This document shows positions 17,740-52,954 of a stretch of DNA of 64,000 nt, piece by piece. Under the pieces are notes generated by a model. That model was not told the origin of the DNA, searched no databases, and was given only the letters and a program-made list of their open reading frames with translations. The stretch covers positions 1 through 64,000 of the forward strand of contig CANGKZ010000023.1 in the NCBI GenBank assembly GCA_947454705.1, read 5' to 3'. The position numbers were made by a program, and so were the translations under genes. This DNA is from Verrucomicrobiota bacterium (GTDB lineage Bacteria > Verrucomicrobiota > Verrucomicrobiia > Limisphaerales > UBA9464). Position 1 is the first letter of the stretch. Each line of letters starts with the position of its first letter.

Positions 17740-18107
17740 CGATCGCTAAACGTCATCGCGAAGATGGGACTGGGGCGGAGGTGCGGGAATTCGGGTGGAT
17801 TCTTGCGAATCGTGAAGCACTCGGTCGAGCGGCAAAGCGGATGATTCGGAAGGGGGCGGGTTTTCCAGCCTGGCAACGACGGCGCTGACGCGGGTCGTTT
17901 TGTAGTATCGGCTGCGCAGCAGCACAGCCCCACCCCGCAAGGGAAGGGCGGCGTTGCCGCGCCGCCGCGGCTGTATTCCCCCTCAACGCTTCAACGTTCA
18001 ACGCTTCAACGTTTCAACCCTTCAACTCCCGTTTTAGTTCAACCCTTCAACTGCCTCTCCGCGGTTCGATCCTTTTCCAACCGCCGCTTTTGAGATCCAG
18101 TCGGGGC
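17740..18107. repeat. Intergenic region with TTCAAC octamer tract
   Basis: It separates the start of the DUF1592 gene from the membrane protein at 18108. Bases 17981-18053 are a run of degenerate octamers with the core TTCAAC. The same kind of tract occurs at 23546-23580, 39436-39510, 39830-39850, 50383-50445 and 52514-52560. The remaining sequence holds nothing recognisable. Confidence 0.7.
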
Positions 18108-23068: not shown

Positions 23069-23589
23069 CGTTTGGGGATCTGGGTTGGGTTTCTGAACGC
23101 TCCGCGAATTAGGCGGAGACGGACTGCTGCAAGGAGGACGCCAGGCGCCCTCCCGGAAGGATCTGAAGCTTCATGGAGGTCGAGGACCCCGCGGCACCGT
23201 CAGGGAGGGTTGATTCCCCAGAAATGGTACGCGCTGAGTCTGTTACTTTTGGAGTAGGGAACCCCCCGCGGAATCTTACCGGGAAACTTCAGGTTTTTTT
23301 CCGGGATCTTTTTTGGAACCCCCTCCGGTGGGCGGAATCCGGGAGTCTGAATCTGAGAAGGGCGGTTGAAACCGCGGACGAACGCAGAGTTTGAAGCGGA
23401 TGGAGAGGAAGATGAATCGTTGGACGCGGGGCCATCGAACGGTTGAAAATCAACCGCCTGCATGCCTCGAGACACGCCTCCCAGAACCGTCTGAAGACGG
23501 GACTCCAAACGAGTGAGGGAATCCTGGCGCCAGCGTCGAATTCCCCTTCAACGCTTCAACTTTTCAACCCTTCAACTGCCGTCGTTCCG
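23069..23589. repeat. Intergenic region with a mosaic repeat (complement orientation)
   Basis: Bases 23421-23580 contain one copy of the long mosaic repeat in complement orientation: GGACGCGGGGCCATCGAACG, ACGCCTCCCAGAACCGTCTG, AAGACGGGACTCCAAACGAG and a terminal TTCAAC octamer tract. Closely similar blocks are at 39436-39670, 39830-39972 and 50221-50445. The part at 23069-23420 is the upstream region of the glycine-rich gene, and no clear promoter is visible there. Confidence 0.75.
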
Positions 23590-27160: not shown

Positions 27161-28039
27161 TCAGGTTCGCAGGAGTCGCACGAGGTGGCGGAGTTCATCA
27201 TCCACCTCGGATTCGTGCGGCACGGTGGCCCGGATTTCCATGCGGACGCGTGCGGCGAACTGTTGTCGAAGGTCGTGCGCTGCCTTTCCGACCGCGCCTT
27301 CCGTGGTGCCGAGCCGTAGGGCGATGTCGCGGTAGTTCTCCGCATCGGGGCTGCCTTCGAGGGAGAGTCGGAGCGCAGCGAACAATTCACCGCGCCCAGC
27401 CCAAGCTGTAGCGACTTGGTTCAATGCGCGTGAAAACACCCCGCGGGCCCAGGCGCGTTCGAAGGCGACATCGGGCGAATCCCCGTCGCGCGCCAACGGT
27501 TCTGCGCGGAGGGCTTCGAGTTCATCCAGCGGCAGGGGAGAGATTCCTCCGCCGCGTTTGGCGGCCTGGTCGCGTTCGGTTTGGTCGCGCACCCAGCGTC
27601 GGAGCGCAACGAGCAGGAAGTTGCGAAACCGTCCATCGCCGGGCCTCAGCTCGCGGAGAAACTCGCGGCTGAGCAGATGCGCAAAGAATCCCTGCACCTG
27701 GTCCGCCGCCGCGTCGGGATCGGCTCCGCGTTGACGCAGGAAAATGTACAGCGGCTGCCAGTAGGCGCGCGCCAGGCGTTCCAACGCCTGCAACGACGCC
27801 GGTGCGTCTGCATCGCCGACGGCAAGGATCGCCGACCACATGGTGGCCGGAAACAATCCCGCCTGGCCGGGTGCAGGCGCAGGTGCGGGTGCGGGTGCGG
27901 GTGCGGGTGCGGGTGCGGGTGCGGGTGCGGGTGCGGATTCAGTCGCAGCCGCGGCCTTGGAGGCGTGCGGTTGTGCGGCGGTGGGGCTCAATCTCGATCT
28001 GATTCGATGGCGCGGAATCACCGGTGTTCCGCGAACCAA
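27161..28039 (-). CDS. ECF-type RNA polymerase sigma factor with Ala-Pro repeat leader
   Basis: Sigma-70-family factor of the Planctomycetes/Verrucomicrobia ECF type, up to 292 aa. Region 2 begins with FPATMWSAILAVGDADAPASL and contains YWQPLYIFLRQRGADPDAAADQVQGFFAHLL. The sigma-4 helix-turn-helix lies near the C-terminus (YRDIALRLGTTEGAVGKAAHDLRQ). The start is uncertain: no ATG precedes region 2, so a TTG at 28039 or a GTG at 28021 is needed; Met at 27841 would cut into the conserved FPATMW start. The leader encodes (Ala-Pro) x 11 from a hexanucleotide repeat. The kinase gene follows 118 bases downstream, and phosphorylation control of this sigma factor by the kinase is a likely but unproven link. 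Confidence 0.82.
   Translation of the reverse strand: MVRGTPVIPRHRIRSRLSPTAAQPHASKAAAATESAPAPAPAPAPAPAPAPAPAPAPGQAGLFPATMWSAILAVGDADAPASLQALERLARAYWQPLYIFLRQRGADPDAAADQVQGFFAHLLSREFLRELRPGDGRFRNFLLVALRRWVRDQTERDQAAKRGGGISPLPLDELEALRAEPLARDGDSPDVAFERAWARGVFSRALNQVATAWAGRGELFAALRLSLEGSPDAENYRDIALRLGTTEGAVGKAAHDLRQQFAARVRMEIRATVPHESEVDDELRHLVRLLRT
27870..27935 (-). repeat. Hexanucleotide microsatellite inside the sigma factor gene
   Basis: Eleven tandem GGTGCG units (plus-strand reading). The nine at 27882-27935 are perfect and the first two are degenerate. On the coding strand each encodes Ala-Pro. Because the unit is six bases, slippage changes length in steps of two residues without changing the frame. 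Confidence 0.95.
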
Positions 28040-36155: not shown

Positions 36156-36291
36156 AAAAGCGGCGTCGACGCTGCGCTCTGCCGCCGCACTCCAAAAGAA
36201 CGAGGCGTGCCGTGGGAGGGGCGTCCAACACGGAGCCGCCTAAACGCGGTCCTGCAAGTCTGATCGCTTCGGACTTTGGACTTTGGACTTT
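36156..36291. repeat. Intergenic mosaic of three repeat families
   Basis: Three elements lie side by side. At 36156-36197 is a copy of the AAAGCGGCGTCGACGC...GCACTCCAAA element also seen at 52679 and 52849. At 36205-36255 is a GAGCCGCCTAAACGCGGT fragment of the long mosaic repeat. At 36271-36291 are three tandem GGACTTT heptamers. Confidence 0.75.
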
Positions 36292-38533: not shown

Positions 38534-38876
38534 GTCGACCGATGGGGCGGATCGGGATTTGGAGTCCCGTCTTCAAACGGTTCTGGTGGGCGGGTGAAAC
38601 GGTGTCGAAGGGGATGAATGCAGCCCCCGGACTTCCTGTCGCGTCCAACATCCGAGCCGCGTAAACGCGGTGCTCCATACCTGATTGCAAATGAAGTGAA
38701 CCCAATGGCCCGGTGTTCGACTTCGGACGTTGAAAACTGGGCGGTCCCGATTTTGCGCTCATTGTGCGCGCAAAACACACATGGAGGTGTTGCAAAGAGG
38801 GGTTCAAAAGGGGTGAAACTAAGGGCAATCGTTTCTTCTCGATCCCAACGTTCAAACCTCAATCCCGATCCATTCC
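38534..38876. repeat. Intergenic region with mosaic repeat and a perfect hairpin
   Basis: Bases 38551-38675 hold a diverged copy of the long mosaic repeat in plus orientation (TTTGGAGTCCCGTCTTCAAA, then GAGCCGCGTAAACGCGGTGC). TTTTGCGC (38753-38760) and GCGCAAAA (38770-38777) form a perfect 8-bp hairpin with a 9-base loop and no T-run. No gene is seen. Confidence 0.7.
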
Positions 38877-39279: not shown

Positions 39280-39426
39280 ATGAATTCCACTCCCACCCCG
39301 AAGACCTCGCGTCGGCGCAGTGGAAACGCCAATCGCAGGCTCAAGCAACGCATTCAAACCGGACTTCAATGGACCGGTGTTTTGGTGCTGGTCGCGATCC
39401 TGTTCGTGTTGTGGCGAAAGAGTTGA
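39280..39426 (+). CDS. Possible small single-pass membrane protein
   Basis: 48 codons encoding a strongly basic N-terminal half (KTSRRRSGNANRRLKQRI) and one transmembrane helix (WTGVLVLVAILFVLW) ending RKS. The pattern of a basic cytoplasmic part and a single anchor is plausible for a small inner-membrane protein. There is no known family, and a ribosome-binding site is not obvious. Confidence 0.4.
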   Translation: MNSTPTPKTSRRRSGNANRRLKQRIQTGLQWTGVLVLVAILFVLWRKS

Positions 39427-40113
39427 GAGGAGACGGGAAACGGCAGTTGAAGGGTTGAACCTGAAAACGGCAGTTGAAGGGTTAAAAAGTTGAAGCGTTG
39501 AAGGGGAATTCGACTCTGCCGCGAGGATTTTCTCCTTCGTTTGGAGTCCCGTCTTCAGACGGTTCGGGTAGGCGCGTCTCGCGGGATGCAGGGGGTTGAT
39601 TTCCAACCGTTCGATGGGCCCGCGTCCAAAAGCAGAGCCGCGTAAACGCGGTACTCCAAACGTGTGAGGAACCCCGTCGCCTAGATCCGGCGTTGCGAGA
39701 GAAAACCACCGTGGGGCAAAGGCCGTGGAGACTCACCCAGCTGGTGAATGAATTGGAGGCGTATCCAACGATTCAGCTCCCTCCCCATCTGCGTTTATCT
39801 GCGTCAATCTGCGGTTTGAACTGCAGTTTCTAGGTTGAAGCGTTGAAGGGGGATCCGACGCTGCGGCGAGGATTTTCTGCTTCGTTTGGAGTCCCGATTT
39901 CAGACGGTTCGGGGAGGCGCGTCTCGAGGCATGCGGACGATTGATGTTCAACCGTTCGATGGACGCCGAATCCTGCGTTCGGTCGGAATGGATCCCCCAC
40001 CGAGGACTTCTCCCTCGCCTGCACGAACCGCCTTTCGAGCCTCTCTGTTCCTGCTTTCCTGCCTTCCAGATTTAACCCTTTGGGTGAGTGCGTAGGCTGT
40101 GGACGTCCACCGG
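39427..40113. repeat. 687-base intergenic region made largely of mosaic repeats
   Basis: Two long mosaic repeats in plus orientation lie at 39436-39670 and 39830-39972. Each starts with GTTGAAG octamers, then TTCGTTTGGAGTCCC.., GACGGTTCGGG.AGGCGCGTC and CAACCGTTCGATGG. Only the first includes the AGAGCCGCGTAAACGCGGTA palindrome. Between them, 39787-39815 is a CTGCGTTTATCTGCGTCAAT repeat, the complement of the motif at 50148-50170. No gene is seen in 39973-40113. Confidence 0.8.
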
Positions 40114-48332: not shown

Positions 48333-50128
48333 CCGATGCCCTGATCCAGCGAACGCGGGATGCGCGGCGCACTCTCGTTCGAACCCTCCATAACGAGCTC
48401 GGACCGGAAGGGCATTGGTCTGGCGAACTTAGCTCAAGCGCCCTCTCCACGGCCACGGCGGTGACTGCCCTCGCCGAGGTGGATCGCGAGGCGCATGGCC
48501 CGCTGATCCGCGGTGGACTCGCCTGGCTTGCGCGGAACATCAATGCCGACGGCGGCTGGGGCGACACCGTTCGCAGCATCAGCAACCTAAGCACCACCGC
48601 CCTCGTGTGGGCAGCCTTCGGTGCGGCGCGGGCCGATGCGGAATATCGGTCCTGTGTGGATTCCGCGGAATCCTACATTCGCACCCACGCCGGATCGCTG
48701 GAGCGCGTGGTGCCCGAAATTGAGGCACGCTACGGCAAGGACCGAACCTTCAGCGTGCCGATCAGCATGATGCTCGCGCTGAGTGGCCGGCTCGGAGCGA
48801 AGGGCTGGGATCAGGTTCGCTCGCTTCCGTTCGAACTCGCTGCGTTTCCCCGGGGTGTCTTCGGGGCGCTGCGTTTGCCGGTGGTGAGTTATGCGTTGCC
48901 CGCATTGATCGCCATCGGTCAGGTCATCCATTTCCGCACCGGCCGATGGAATCCGCTCCGCTCCCTGGCGCGAGCGAGGACGCTTCGGACGCTGATCACG
49001 CTCCAACCTCCCAACGGCGGATTCCTTGAAGCCACCCCGCTCACCAGTTTTGTGACCATGAGCCTCGCCGGCATGGGACTCGGGGATCATTTGGTGGCGC
49101 GCCGCGGTGTGGAATTCCTGCGTCAATCGGTGCGCCCGGATGGCAGCTGGCCGATCGATACCAACCTCGCCACCTGGGTCACCACGCTCTCGGTGAAAGC
49201 ACTGCACTGGGACGAGGCCGAGATCGCGTCGCCGTCGTTCCGGAAGGAAGTCGTCCGCGATTGGATTCTCGCGCAGCAATACCACGTGGTGCATCCGTAC
49301 ACCGGGGCCGCACCGGGTGGATGGGCCTGGACGGATCTGCCGGGCGGTGTGCCGGATGCCGATGACACGGCCGGCGCGTTGATCGCGCTGCATGCCTTGC
49401 GCGCGGACGTGGATGCCAAAGATGCCGCGCTGGATTCGTCGGTGACTGCTGGAATCGAATGGCTGCTCGGGCTGCAAAATCGCGATGGGGGAATCCCCAC
49501 CTTCTGTCGCGGATGGGGAACGCTTCCGTTCGATCGCAGCACTCCCGAGCTCACTGCGCACGCGCTACGCGCCTGGGCAGTCTGGCATTCGGAACTCGCA
49601 CCGGAACTGGCGTCACGCGTCGGCAAGGCGGCCCGTCGTGCGGTACTTTTTCTGGAACAATCGCAGCGGTCGGACGGTGTGTGGATTCCGCTCTGGTTTG
49701 GAAATGAGGCCGAGGCGGCGCAGGAGAATCCCGTTTATGGAACCGCGCAGGTGCTGATTGCGCTTCACGACATTCGGTCGAGCGGGTTGCTTCCGGGGTC
49801 GACCGGAACGATGGAGTCGCGGGCGGTGGACTACCTGCTTCGGGCGCAGCGGACTGACGGCGGCTGGGGCGGCGCAGTGGGTTTGGTTTCCACCGTGGAG
49901 GAAACTTCGCTCGCGCTGCGGGCATTGAAACCGGTGGTCGATGCCACCGCGGCGGTGGAGCAGGGGACCCGATGGCTTTTGGATCGGCTGGAGGAATCGC
50001 CACTGCCCCAGCCCGCACCCATTGGGTTGTACTTTGCCCGGCTCTGGTATTTTGAGCGGATGTACCCGCTGGTGTTTGCGGCCGATACGCTGGGGGCCCT
50101 GAGCGTCAGCGCGAACCCACGTGGATAA
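48329..50128 (+). CDS. Squalene-hopene cyclase-like class II terpene cyclase
   Basis: 599 aa; GTG at 48329 overlaps the previous stop (GTGA). A two-barrel protein with QW-type repeats (NINADGGWGDTV, SVRPDGSWPID, LLGLQNRDGGIPTF, LLRAQRTDGGWGG). The protonation motif of class II cyclases, DxDDTA, is present as Asp343-Ala-Asp345-Asp346-Thr-Ala (VPDADDTAGAL). Squalene-hopene cyclases are 630-670 aa and share this motif, but the rest is divergent here. A protonation-initiated cyclisation of a linear isoprenoid, possibly the product of the prenyl synthase two genes upstream, is the likely reaction. It is the last gene of the operon and is followed by repeats. Confidence 0.87.
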   Translation: MTDALIQRTRDARRTLVRTLHNELGPEGHWSGELSSSALSTATAVTALAEVDREAHGPLIRGGLAWLARNINADGGWGDTVRSISNLSTTALVWAAFGAARADAEYRSCVDSAESYIRTHAGSLERVVPEIEARYGKDRTFSVPISMMLALSGRLGAKGWDQVRSLPFELAAFPRGVFGALRLPVVSYALPALIAIGQVIHFRTGRWNPLRSLARARTLRTLITLQPPNGGFLEATPLTSFVTMSLAGMGLGDHLVARRGVEFLRQSVRPDGSWPIDTNLATWVTTLSVKALHWDEAEIASPSFRKEVVRDWILAQQYHVVHPYTGAAPGGWAWTDLPGGVPDADDTAGALIALHALRADVDAKDAALDSSVTAGIEWLLGLQNRDGGIPTFCRGWGTLPFDRSTPELTAHALRAWAVWHSELAPELASRVGKAARRAVLFLEQSQRSDGVWIPLWFGNEAEAAQENPVYGTAQVLIALHDIRSSGLLPGSTGTMESRAVDYLLRAQRTDGGWGGAVGLVSTVEETSLALRALKPVVDATAAVEQGTRWLLDRLEESPLPQPAPIGLYFARLWYFERMYPLVFAADTLGALSVSANPRG

Positions 50129-50452
50129 ATCAAAGAACGGCAGTTCGAACCGCAGATGGACGCAGATGGAAAGGGAGATAAGTCGTTCAACTGCCGGATT
50201 TTGGCCCCGGAGTTTTCTCACACGTTTGGAGTCCCTTGTTTACGCGGCTCTGCTGTTGGACGCGGGGCCACCGGAAGGTTGAAAAGTAGCCGTTTGCGTC
50301 CCTCGAGACGCGCCTCCCCGAACCGTTTGAAGACGGGACTCCAAACGAATGAGCAAACCCTCGCGGCAGCGTCGGATTCCCCTTCAACGCTTCAACTTTT
50401 TAACCCTTCAACCGCCGTTTGTAGGTTTAACCCTTCAACCGCCGTTCTCAGT
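50129..50452. repeat. Repeat region after the terpene operon
   Basis: CGCAGATGGACGCAGATGGA (50151-50170, within a motif from 50148) is the complement of the element at 39787-39815. Bases 50221-50445 are a long mosaic repeat in complement orientation with palindrome, GGACTCCAAACGA block and two TTCAAC octamer tracts. No terminator is visible after the cyclase gene apart from these. Confidence 0.8.
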
Positions 50453-52436: not shown

Positions 52437-52954
52437 GCGAGTGGGTACGGACCATGGCACGCGACCCTCGGGCGCGTCACGAGTTTGCCCGCGGAAGGAG
52501 GGGTGGCGGTTCACCTGGGAAACGGGAGTTGAAGGGTTAAAATTGTTGAAGGGTTGAAGGGGAAAAAAGTGTTGTTCCCGTGCGTATGAAGTCCTGCGTT
52601 TACGGGGCTCGGGTAGGCGCGACAGCTCAATGTTGAAGTTGAGCAACACGAGGCGCGAGCGGTTCGAAGCCGCGCCCCTTTGGAGTGCGGCGGGAAGCGG
52701 AGCGCCACGCCGCTTTGGTCAACGCTAACCCGGGAACGAGGCAAATGGACCGCAGAGGCGCGGAGACGCGGAGAAGCAACGGACTGAGGTGTTTCGCTTT
52801 TGATGCGGGTGCGACGGGACCGGTCGGGTTCACATCGCGGGCGGTTTTGAAAGCGGTGTCGACGCTCCGCTCTGCCACCGCACTCCAAAATCACACGGCT
52901 TCCGTGTGAGCCCATTTTTCATTTTGAATTGAGCATTTTTAATTGGCCCCCGCC
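52437..52954. repeat. Repeat-rich intergenic region with an inverted element pair
   Basis: GTTGAAG octamers lie at 52514-52560, followed by a fragment of the mosaic repeat. The element TTTGGAGTGCGGCGGGAAGC (52679-52718) and its inverted, related copy at 52849-52890 enclose 130 bases, including a CGCAGAGGCGCGGAGACGCG repeat (52750-52775). No gene is seen. Confidence 0.8.

Follow-up and report, generated by a model that had tools for sequence, protein, structure and literature searches.

A 375-nt intergenic repeat of a Verrucomicrobiota bacterium as a very probable MITE of an IS1380-like insertion sequence with a REPIN-like hairpin pair as cargo

What kind of sequence is the long mosaic of palindromes that recurs between the genes of this Verrucomicrobiota bacterium, and by what means has it multiplied? 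The question is raised by the window, which is the whole 64,000-nt stretch analysed here (contig C23, positions 1-64000; host genome of 5.45 Mb in 80 contigs, 95.7% complete). A sequence-only reading had described the repeat as blocks in fixed order over 150-230 bases, always intergenic and in both orientations, and had suggested either mobilised non-coding elements or RNA structures. The named blocks were found where that reading had placed them, with GGAGTCCCGTCTTCAGACGG matching five times in the window at up to 3 mismatches (0.00 expected) and GAGCCGCGTAAACGCGGT also five times (0.09 expected). The fixed order held only in part, as GAGCCGCGTAAACGCGGT is missing at 39830-39972 and at 23421-23580, and its match at 50221-50445 contains 3 mismatches. 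We conclude that the repeat is very probably a non-autonomous transposon, namely a miniature inverted-repeat transposable element (MITE) of ~375 nt, belonging to an IS1380-like insertion sequence. Its ordered blocks, two directions, and nesting would arise because it is a gene-less transposon with a hairpin pair as cargo.

The repeat extends past the coordinates first given for it, and its far end repeats the start in inverted form. The complete unit, present as an intact copy at 39460-39834 on the plus strand, is 375 nt long and thus exceeds the length first proposed. In our alignments of 30 host copies (the downstream part in 16 of those 30), the module order is an end repeat, an octamer array, ~30 nt, hairpin A, a spacer, an inverted hairpin B, ~100 nt, a decamer array, and an end repeat. 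In the intact copy, these modules comprise (i) the left terminal inverted repeat CCTGAAAACGGCAGTT (39460-39475, plus strand); (ii) the octamer array GTTGAAGG GTTAAAAA GTTGAAGC GTTGAAGG (39473-39504, plus strand; also seen in the 30-copy alignment); (iii) a REPIN-like cargo (39538-39661, plus strand), with hairpin A, GGAGTCCCGTCTTCAGACGG, at 39543-39562 on the plus strand, a variable spacer, and hairpin B, reading GGAGTACCGCGTTTACGCGGCTC on the minus strand, at 39635-39657; (iv) the right-end decamer array ATCTGCGTTT ATCTGCGTCA ATCTGCGGTT (39787-39816, plus strand); and (v) the right terminal inverted repeat (39819-39834, minus strand; AACTGCAGTTTCTAGG in the plus-strand reading). The two 16-nt ends are flanked by a target site duplication, TTGAA, at 39455-39459 and 39835-39839. 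The unit is short, multicopy, and devoid of a transposase gene, as is characteristic of a MITE.

The repeat is widespread in the host. A BLAST search of the host genome with 39431-39671 found at least 61 matches when 40 of the 317 candidates were scored, which excludes a duplication limited to the window, and copies were found on either strand, as had been described. The 14-mer AAACGGCRGTTSRA from the terminal inverted repeat occurs 119 times in the host genome (0 times for the reversed control), and hairpin-A sites number ~145, as extrapolated from an 864-kb sample that includes the window. Among relatives, 16 of the 58 genomes searched, host counted, match the repeat. Outside the host, only G001, a member of the same genus, carries a long match (75% over 193 nt), while the other genomes match single modules.

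The 16-nt ends, of the type CCTARAAACGGCRGTT, consist of an inner 11-mer and five outer nucleotides, CCTAR. Their inverted pairs occur at fixed spacing, with 15-16 rows of 179-180 nt and six of exactly 365 nt between the inner 11-mers. Among 40 such pairs in the host genome (some rows have a common end, L158 serving three and L016, L005, and L154 two each), the 5-bp flanks are identical in 25 and differ by at most one mismatch in 34. Exact flank matches of other lengths are confined to two cases of 2 bp, with none at 3, 4, 6, 7, 8, or 9 bp, and shuffled partners gave a mean of 9.8 exact 5-bp matches and a maximum of 18 in 2000 trials. Exact duplications flank all nine of the rows that measure 364-367 nt and contain the hairpin pair, and so indicate that the chimeric element has moved as a unit; they also flank 10 of the 16 rows of 179-180 nt. 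The 15 pairs without an exact duplication include both rows of 355 nt. The left flank is TTGAA or TTCAA in 28 of the 40 pairs; elsewhere, one pair, among the nine rows of 364-367 nt, has ATGAT on both sides, at a target outside the octamer arrays (L026), and another has TTCAT on both sides, in an altered octamer target (L161). Identities are 80-92% for ten copies of the 365-nt class and 65-99% (median, 88%) for 16 copies of the 180-nt class, and the copies are therefore not very recent.

These features bear on a reading in which slippage and recombination are the sole causes of the spread of the octamer and decamer arrays, and gene conversion carried copies of the hairpin blocks with them. Octamer arrays without other modules do form 19 intergenic clusters in the 864-kb sample, and another genome, G016, matches the octamer part with no match to the end pattern. 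Against this reading stand the fixed lengths, the inverted ends, and the fact that exact 5-bp duplications occur at sites unrelated to one another, one of them outside octamers; we consider it extremely improbable as an account of the repeat. For the MITE it is refuted by the target site duplications; changes of array length may still come about in this way.

Nesting of one MITE in another accounts for the most conspicuous arrangement in the window. Joining the flanks 39438-39459 (plus strand; a left-end remnant of an older copy) and 39840-39962 (plus strand; the rest of that copy, with octamers, hairpin A, and spacer, and without hairpin B) restores an older element start with fewer octamers than usual. 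The apparent tandem of 39436-39670 and 39830-39972 exists because the element at 39460-39834 was inserted in this older copy. A decayed copy on the minus strand at 50135-50447, with a shortened right half and no exact target duplication, lies between the stop codons of convergent genes ending at 50128 and 50453; the orthologous gene pair of G007, read by eye, has a short gap with no element at this site. Further copies, or parts of them, comprise (i) a minus-strand copy at 23396-23583, also read by eye, with an internal deletion that took hairpin B and the following part; (ii) a plus-strand REPIN-like hairpin pair at 38556-38681 with a different spacer and without MITE end or octamers, whose site holds no repeat in G001 and unrelated repeats in G007; (iii) octamer arrays without hairpins at 17975-18058 (minus strand); (iv) a fragment with hairpin B at 36219-36262 (plus strand); and (v) an octamer array with a degenerate hairpin B after it, at 52508-52621 (plus strand). 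The suggestion of mobilised non-coding elements is thus borne out by the end sequences, the 5-bp duplications, an empty orthologous site, a nested insertion, and, as described below, a matching autonomous element.

Autonomous copies emerged when we searched the order with the end sequence, and the following counts are among the matches listed. CCTARAAACGGCRGTT occurs in 38 of the 293 genomes of the order, most often in the host (29 + 32), G039 (13 + 18), G019 (18 + 8), G143 (13 + 8), and G193 (8 + 7). Between such ends, G193 carries at least six elements of exactly 1730 bp, with an identity of 99.9-100% among them and a 5-bp duplication at each of the 6 sites (TTTAA, ATTAT, TTTAT, and TTGAA three times), and G046 carries at least one element of 1714 bp with the target duplication TTCAC. 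Their transposases, of 525 and 520 amino acids, respectively, are 57% identical and score above the cut-off of the Pfam model DDE_Tnp_1_4 (PF13701; 53.2 and 90.9 bits versus 34.7). The best NCBIfam model for both is IS1380 (NF033539), with scores of 120.5 and 154.6 bits that fall below its cut-off of 180, and we therefore use the label IS1380-like. A plasmid search identified a transposase of 48% identity on a plasmid of Polaromonas sp. P1-6, in an element of 1630 bp with TTAAA on both sides, a right end identical to that of the MITE, and a left end with 4 mismatches. The MITE and the autonomous elements of G193 and G046 have the same end pattern, and a 5-bp duplication flanks the MITE and all of the autonomous elements alike.

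A search of 50 genomes from the window's own family yielded transposase matches at 12 loci, which belong to 10 genomes. At five of these loci, in four genomes (G061, with two loci, G034, G029, and G058), such an end lies 45-120 nt from the end of the gene with 1-3 mismatches, and transposase remains adjoin the ends; at the other seven, no such end was found within the stretch fetched. Among the first 25 PF13701 loci, ten have 16-mers within 3-4 mismatches of the end, with no end pair recognised around the gene, and an end-like 16-mer stands at the right place only at the G034 locus (L205). The IS1380-like elements of G019 and G005 are bounded by different ends. In the host assembly (95.7% complete), a transposase of this kind was matched in none of 5 and none of 10 candidates, so that the MITE family may now be stranded there; loss of its source, or its absence from the assembly, fits this result. 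In a viral sequence collection, IMG/VR, the terminal inverted repeat was found in three contigs. One of these, IMGVR_UViG_3300048576_000602, holds such an end together with a transposase start, and may be either host DNA or viral DNA that took up an insertion.

We propose that a transposase supplied in trans would recognise the 16-nt inverted ends and place the element in a target of 5 bp, with a preference for TTSAA and with duplication of the target; the enzyme step is our extrapolation, and the ends and duplications are read directly from the DNA. The interior would travel as cargo, comprising the octamer arrays, the REPIN-like, GGAG-tagged hairpin pair, and the right end with its decamer array. 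Since the octamer GTTGAAGG contains the preferred target, octamer arrays tend to serve as landing sites, also where they are part of an older copy. Landing there would build nested mosaics, of which 39438-39962 is an observed case, and we infer from the target preference together with this case that an octamer-bearing MITE would breed its own targets. As for the origin of the interior, IS1380 members are reported to mobilise adjacent DNA by misrecognition of their ends (PMC9330008). The hairpins and octamers may have entered the MITE by this plausible route, with misrecognised ends carrying off adjacent DNA.

The hairpin pair was examined in an alignment of 46 rows, namely 45 from the host and one from G001. 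Across these rows, hairpins A and B hardly vary, and ~50 nt of the spacer are replaced in several copies and in G001. The tag GGAG is present in 44 of the 46 rows at hairpin A and in 44 of the 46 at hairpin B. The 124-nt A-to-B consensus closes with an outer 10-bp stem, CGTTTGGAGT/ACTCCAAACG, and folds with -56 kcal/mol under RNA parameters and -31 under DNA parameters. The pair hence shows the two inverted tagged hairpins, conserved ends, and variable spacer of a REPIN across the 46 rows; 5' of the hairpin, it has GGAG instead of GT[AG]G. Among 24 hairpin-A sites in the 864-kb sample (up to 4 mismatches), 18 have upstream octamers, 18 have hairpin B, 8 have inverted octamers to the right, and 4 have neither octamers nor ends; a left end is recognisable at 14 and a right end at 6 of the 24.

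The same hairpins exist apart from the MITE. In the GTDB collection, from which the host's own records were possibly left out, the hairpin-A 23-mer occurs exactly in seven contigs of two Verrucomicrobia MAGs, one being G001, which shares an identical contig with MAG CANGMO01, and the other taken to be G007. In these seven contigs, the same search gave 21 hits, 11 to hairpin A and 10 to a partner hairpin, and neither octamers nor ends accompany any of the 21, indicating that the pair exists independently of the MITE. Because the hairpin pair thus occurs without MITE ends in two species of the host's genus, we regard the element as a chimera. The partner hairpin of G001 and G007 has a different stem that is still paired (CC/GG versus CG/CG).

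A second reading holds that the whole repeat is a BIME/REPIN moved by a RAYT, a Y1 tyrosine transposase acting on the hairpins. Two hairpins in inverted orientation, a tag conserved on their 5' side, and a spacer that is freely exchanged are indeed REPIN anatomy, and tagged hairpins are mostly paired, at 91 of 99 sites in the host and at 15 of 16 in the loci of G001/G007, compared with 33 of 81 for look-alikes that lack the tag (the relatedness of the tagged copies makes their sites non-independent). Y1 transposases are also frequent, with 47 of 50 genomes in the family having one, and beside the host's Y1 gene, GGAG and GTAG each stand just 5' of one other hairpin, with GGAG beside that of G001 as well (L092). 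These two loci, with GGAG before hairpins of other stems, show that a Y1 gene next to GGAG-tagged hairpins exists. However, the inverted ends and 5-bp duplications are not expected from RAYT action, and the host's single Y1 is of IS200/IS605 type by NCBIfam (77.5 versus 55 bits; REP-associated model, 24.4 versus 80). The search for a RAYT-type transposase that the sequence-only reading had recommended covered the host and 50 family genomes and turned up, in the host, only this gene, adjoining other hairpins; hairpin A or B was found at none of 41 Y1 loci, a subset of the family's Y1 matches (30 loci searched for hairpins A/B at up to 4 mismatches and 13 stretches searched for the exact tagged-hairpin pattern, 2 overlapping). 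Furthermore, published REP tags read GT[AG]G (PMC6006769 and PMC3686654), as opposed to the GGAG of hairpins A and B. We therefore judge RAYT mobilisation of the whole repeat very unlikely, the target site duplications having largely refuted it for the 375-nt unit, whereas a Y1 enzyme may move the hairpin pair alone, given the GGAG at two Y1 loci. GGAG might itself be a REP tag; no description of it as such was found in the literature text searched, REP papers by word search included.

Beside these results stands a separate REP-like family at the host Y1 locus (L031, G000:C26:60846-64193), which encodes a protein of 188 amino acids, the only Y1 found in the host. Upstream of the gene are the paired hairpins CCCAGGCC..GGCCTGGG, one after GTAG and one after GGAG, and within the 864-kb sample this hairpin has 23 hits when up to 4 mismatches are allowed, a site counting on both strands in some cases. 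Another GGAG-tagged hairpin family, TTTGGAGTGCGGTGGCAGAGCG..., occurs in the window at 36157-36206 and 52850-52902, and elsewhere in the host also between octamer arrays (C2:118342 and C2:123754).

A third reading regards the repeat as a functional RNA or bidirectional terminator that is kept by selection at gene ends, with mobility being secondary. We assessed gene context with a home-made gene finder in the 864-kb sample, where 28 of 29 hairpin-A/B loci are intergenic; the claim that the repeat is always intergenic thus stands but for one 20-nt match within a predicted gene. Of the 28 intergenic loci, 16 lie between convergent genes, several of them within 10-30 nt of both stops, versus an expected fraction of 0.165 of intergenic bases with repeats removed (p 1e-6) or 0.198 with repeats included. 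This bias, together with the strong folding of the 124-nt core, favours the reading, but a convergent bias is also expected if selection removes insertions near promoters. Orientation relative to genes, which had been proposed for inspection, shows no preference, with five copies with and four against the gene direction in tandem gaps. Moreover, the site of 50135-50447 is empty in the orthologous G007 region, the spacer is not conserved, and Rfam gave no match for 39300-40100. As to the suggested RNA structure, the 124-nt core does fold well and stems differ in compensated ways when hairpin types and species are compared, but RNAalifold found no compensatory change across 13 pairs within the 46 rows, and covariation among host copies is therefore not evidence for it. 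On balance, we consider a selected RNA or terminator very unlikely as the principal explanation, and retain the gene-less IS1380-like transposon, whose copies might have a terminator role.

The ends of this transposon also enclose other interiors. Elements of ~180 nt hold decamers only, and elements of 278-294 nt hold a G+C-rich hairpin pair (L165, L168, and C1:181084); at a further locus (L172), the left end and octamers are followed by still other hairpins. The G+C-rich pair, GGCGTGGCAACGCCGCC ... TTTTTGGAGTTTCGGCGGCG, appears as an alternative cargo within the same MITE end modules (L165, L167, L168, and L169). In G019, from a different genus within the family, these ends surround interiors of another kind, which contain a TCACCC..GGTGA palindrome together with decamer arrays (L175-L194), and the elements often adjoin a repeat resembling the ends of the local IS1380-like element (AACGATTCAGT). 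As a tentative proposal, possible but one that we would not yet favour, the repeat may be a self-feeding modular family, in which the ends carry interchangeable cargoes (the REPIN-like A-B pair, the G+C-rich pair, or decamers only) along with octamers that are their own preferred targets, such that copies breed targets and swap cargo. If this is true, a single mobile unit would join a DDE element to a REPIN-type hairpin pair, mobile systems that are unrelated to each other.

Comparison with known systems places the element as an ordinary kind, a MITE of an IS1380-like element, with an unusual make-up, namely a REPIN-like cargo, interchangeable interiors, and octamer-array nesting. The IS1380 family, with its transposable modules (ISEcp1 and ISPme1), has likewise a DDE_Tnp_1_4 transposase and ends beginning with CC, whereas the moving units here are gene-less and the transposase is only 22-25% identical to annotated IS1380 members, among those listed. 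In two annotated copies examined, the ends begin with CCC in Aliarcobacter, with ATAAT on both sides, and with CCT in ISSsu5, for which no target duplication was seen, unlike the 5 bp of the MITE. TIMEs, the Tn3-derived MITEs, are similarly short, gene-less, and mosaic-forming, with inverted ends and a 5-bp duplication (PMC4133298), but the ends and transposase here are IS1380-like rather than Tn3, and the interior consists of a REPIN-like pair and octamer landing sites. REPINs and BIMEs share the two inverted hairpins, conserved ends, variable spacer, and single fold (PMC3116915); they differ in that the present tag is GGAG and not GT[AG]G, that a cognate RAYT was not found at the 41 Y1 loci, and that the pair is carried inside a MITE bounded by terminal inverted repeats. 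GTAG repeats are reported as abundant in another verrucomicrobium, O. terrae (PMC3733652). Pneumococcal BOX elements are also composite intergenic repeats, in which the end modules are fixed and the middle modules vary in number (PMC3049150), but they have other sequences and another host, and for the present repeat we identify the ends, the target duplication, and an autonomous element that matches. Searches for IS1380 MITEs, Verrucomicrobia MITEs or palindromic repeats, REPIN-MITEs, and modular repeats yielded no description of such an element in the literature covered, which included few subscription journals.

An unexplained mosaic of palindromes in uncultured Verrucomicrobia thereby becomes a defined transposon with ends, a target, and a testable enzyme. 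The element also suggests that REPIN-like pairs can travel inside a classical element with terminal inverted repeats, which bears on the spread of REP-type repeats that have no known RAYT. Finally, the window holds a tandem array of CGGGTG hexamers at 27868-27945.
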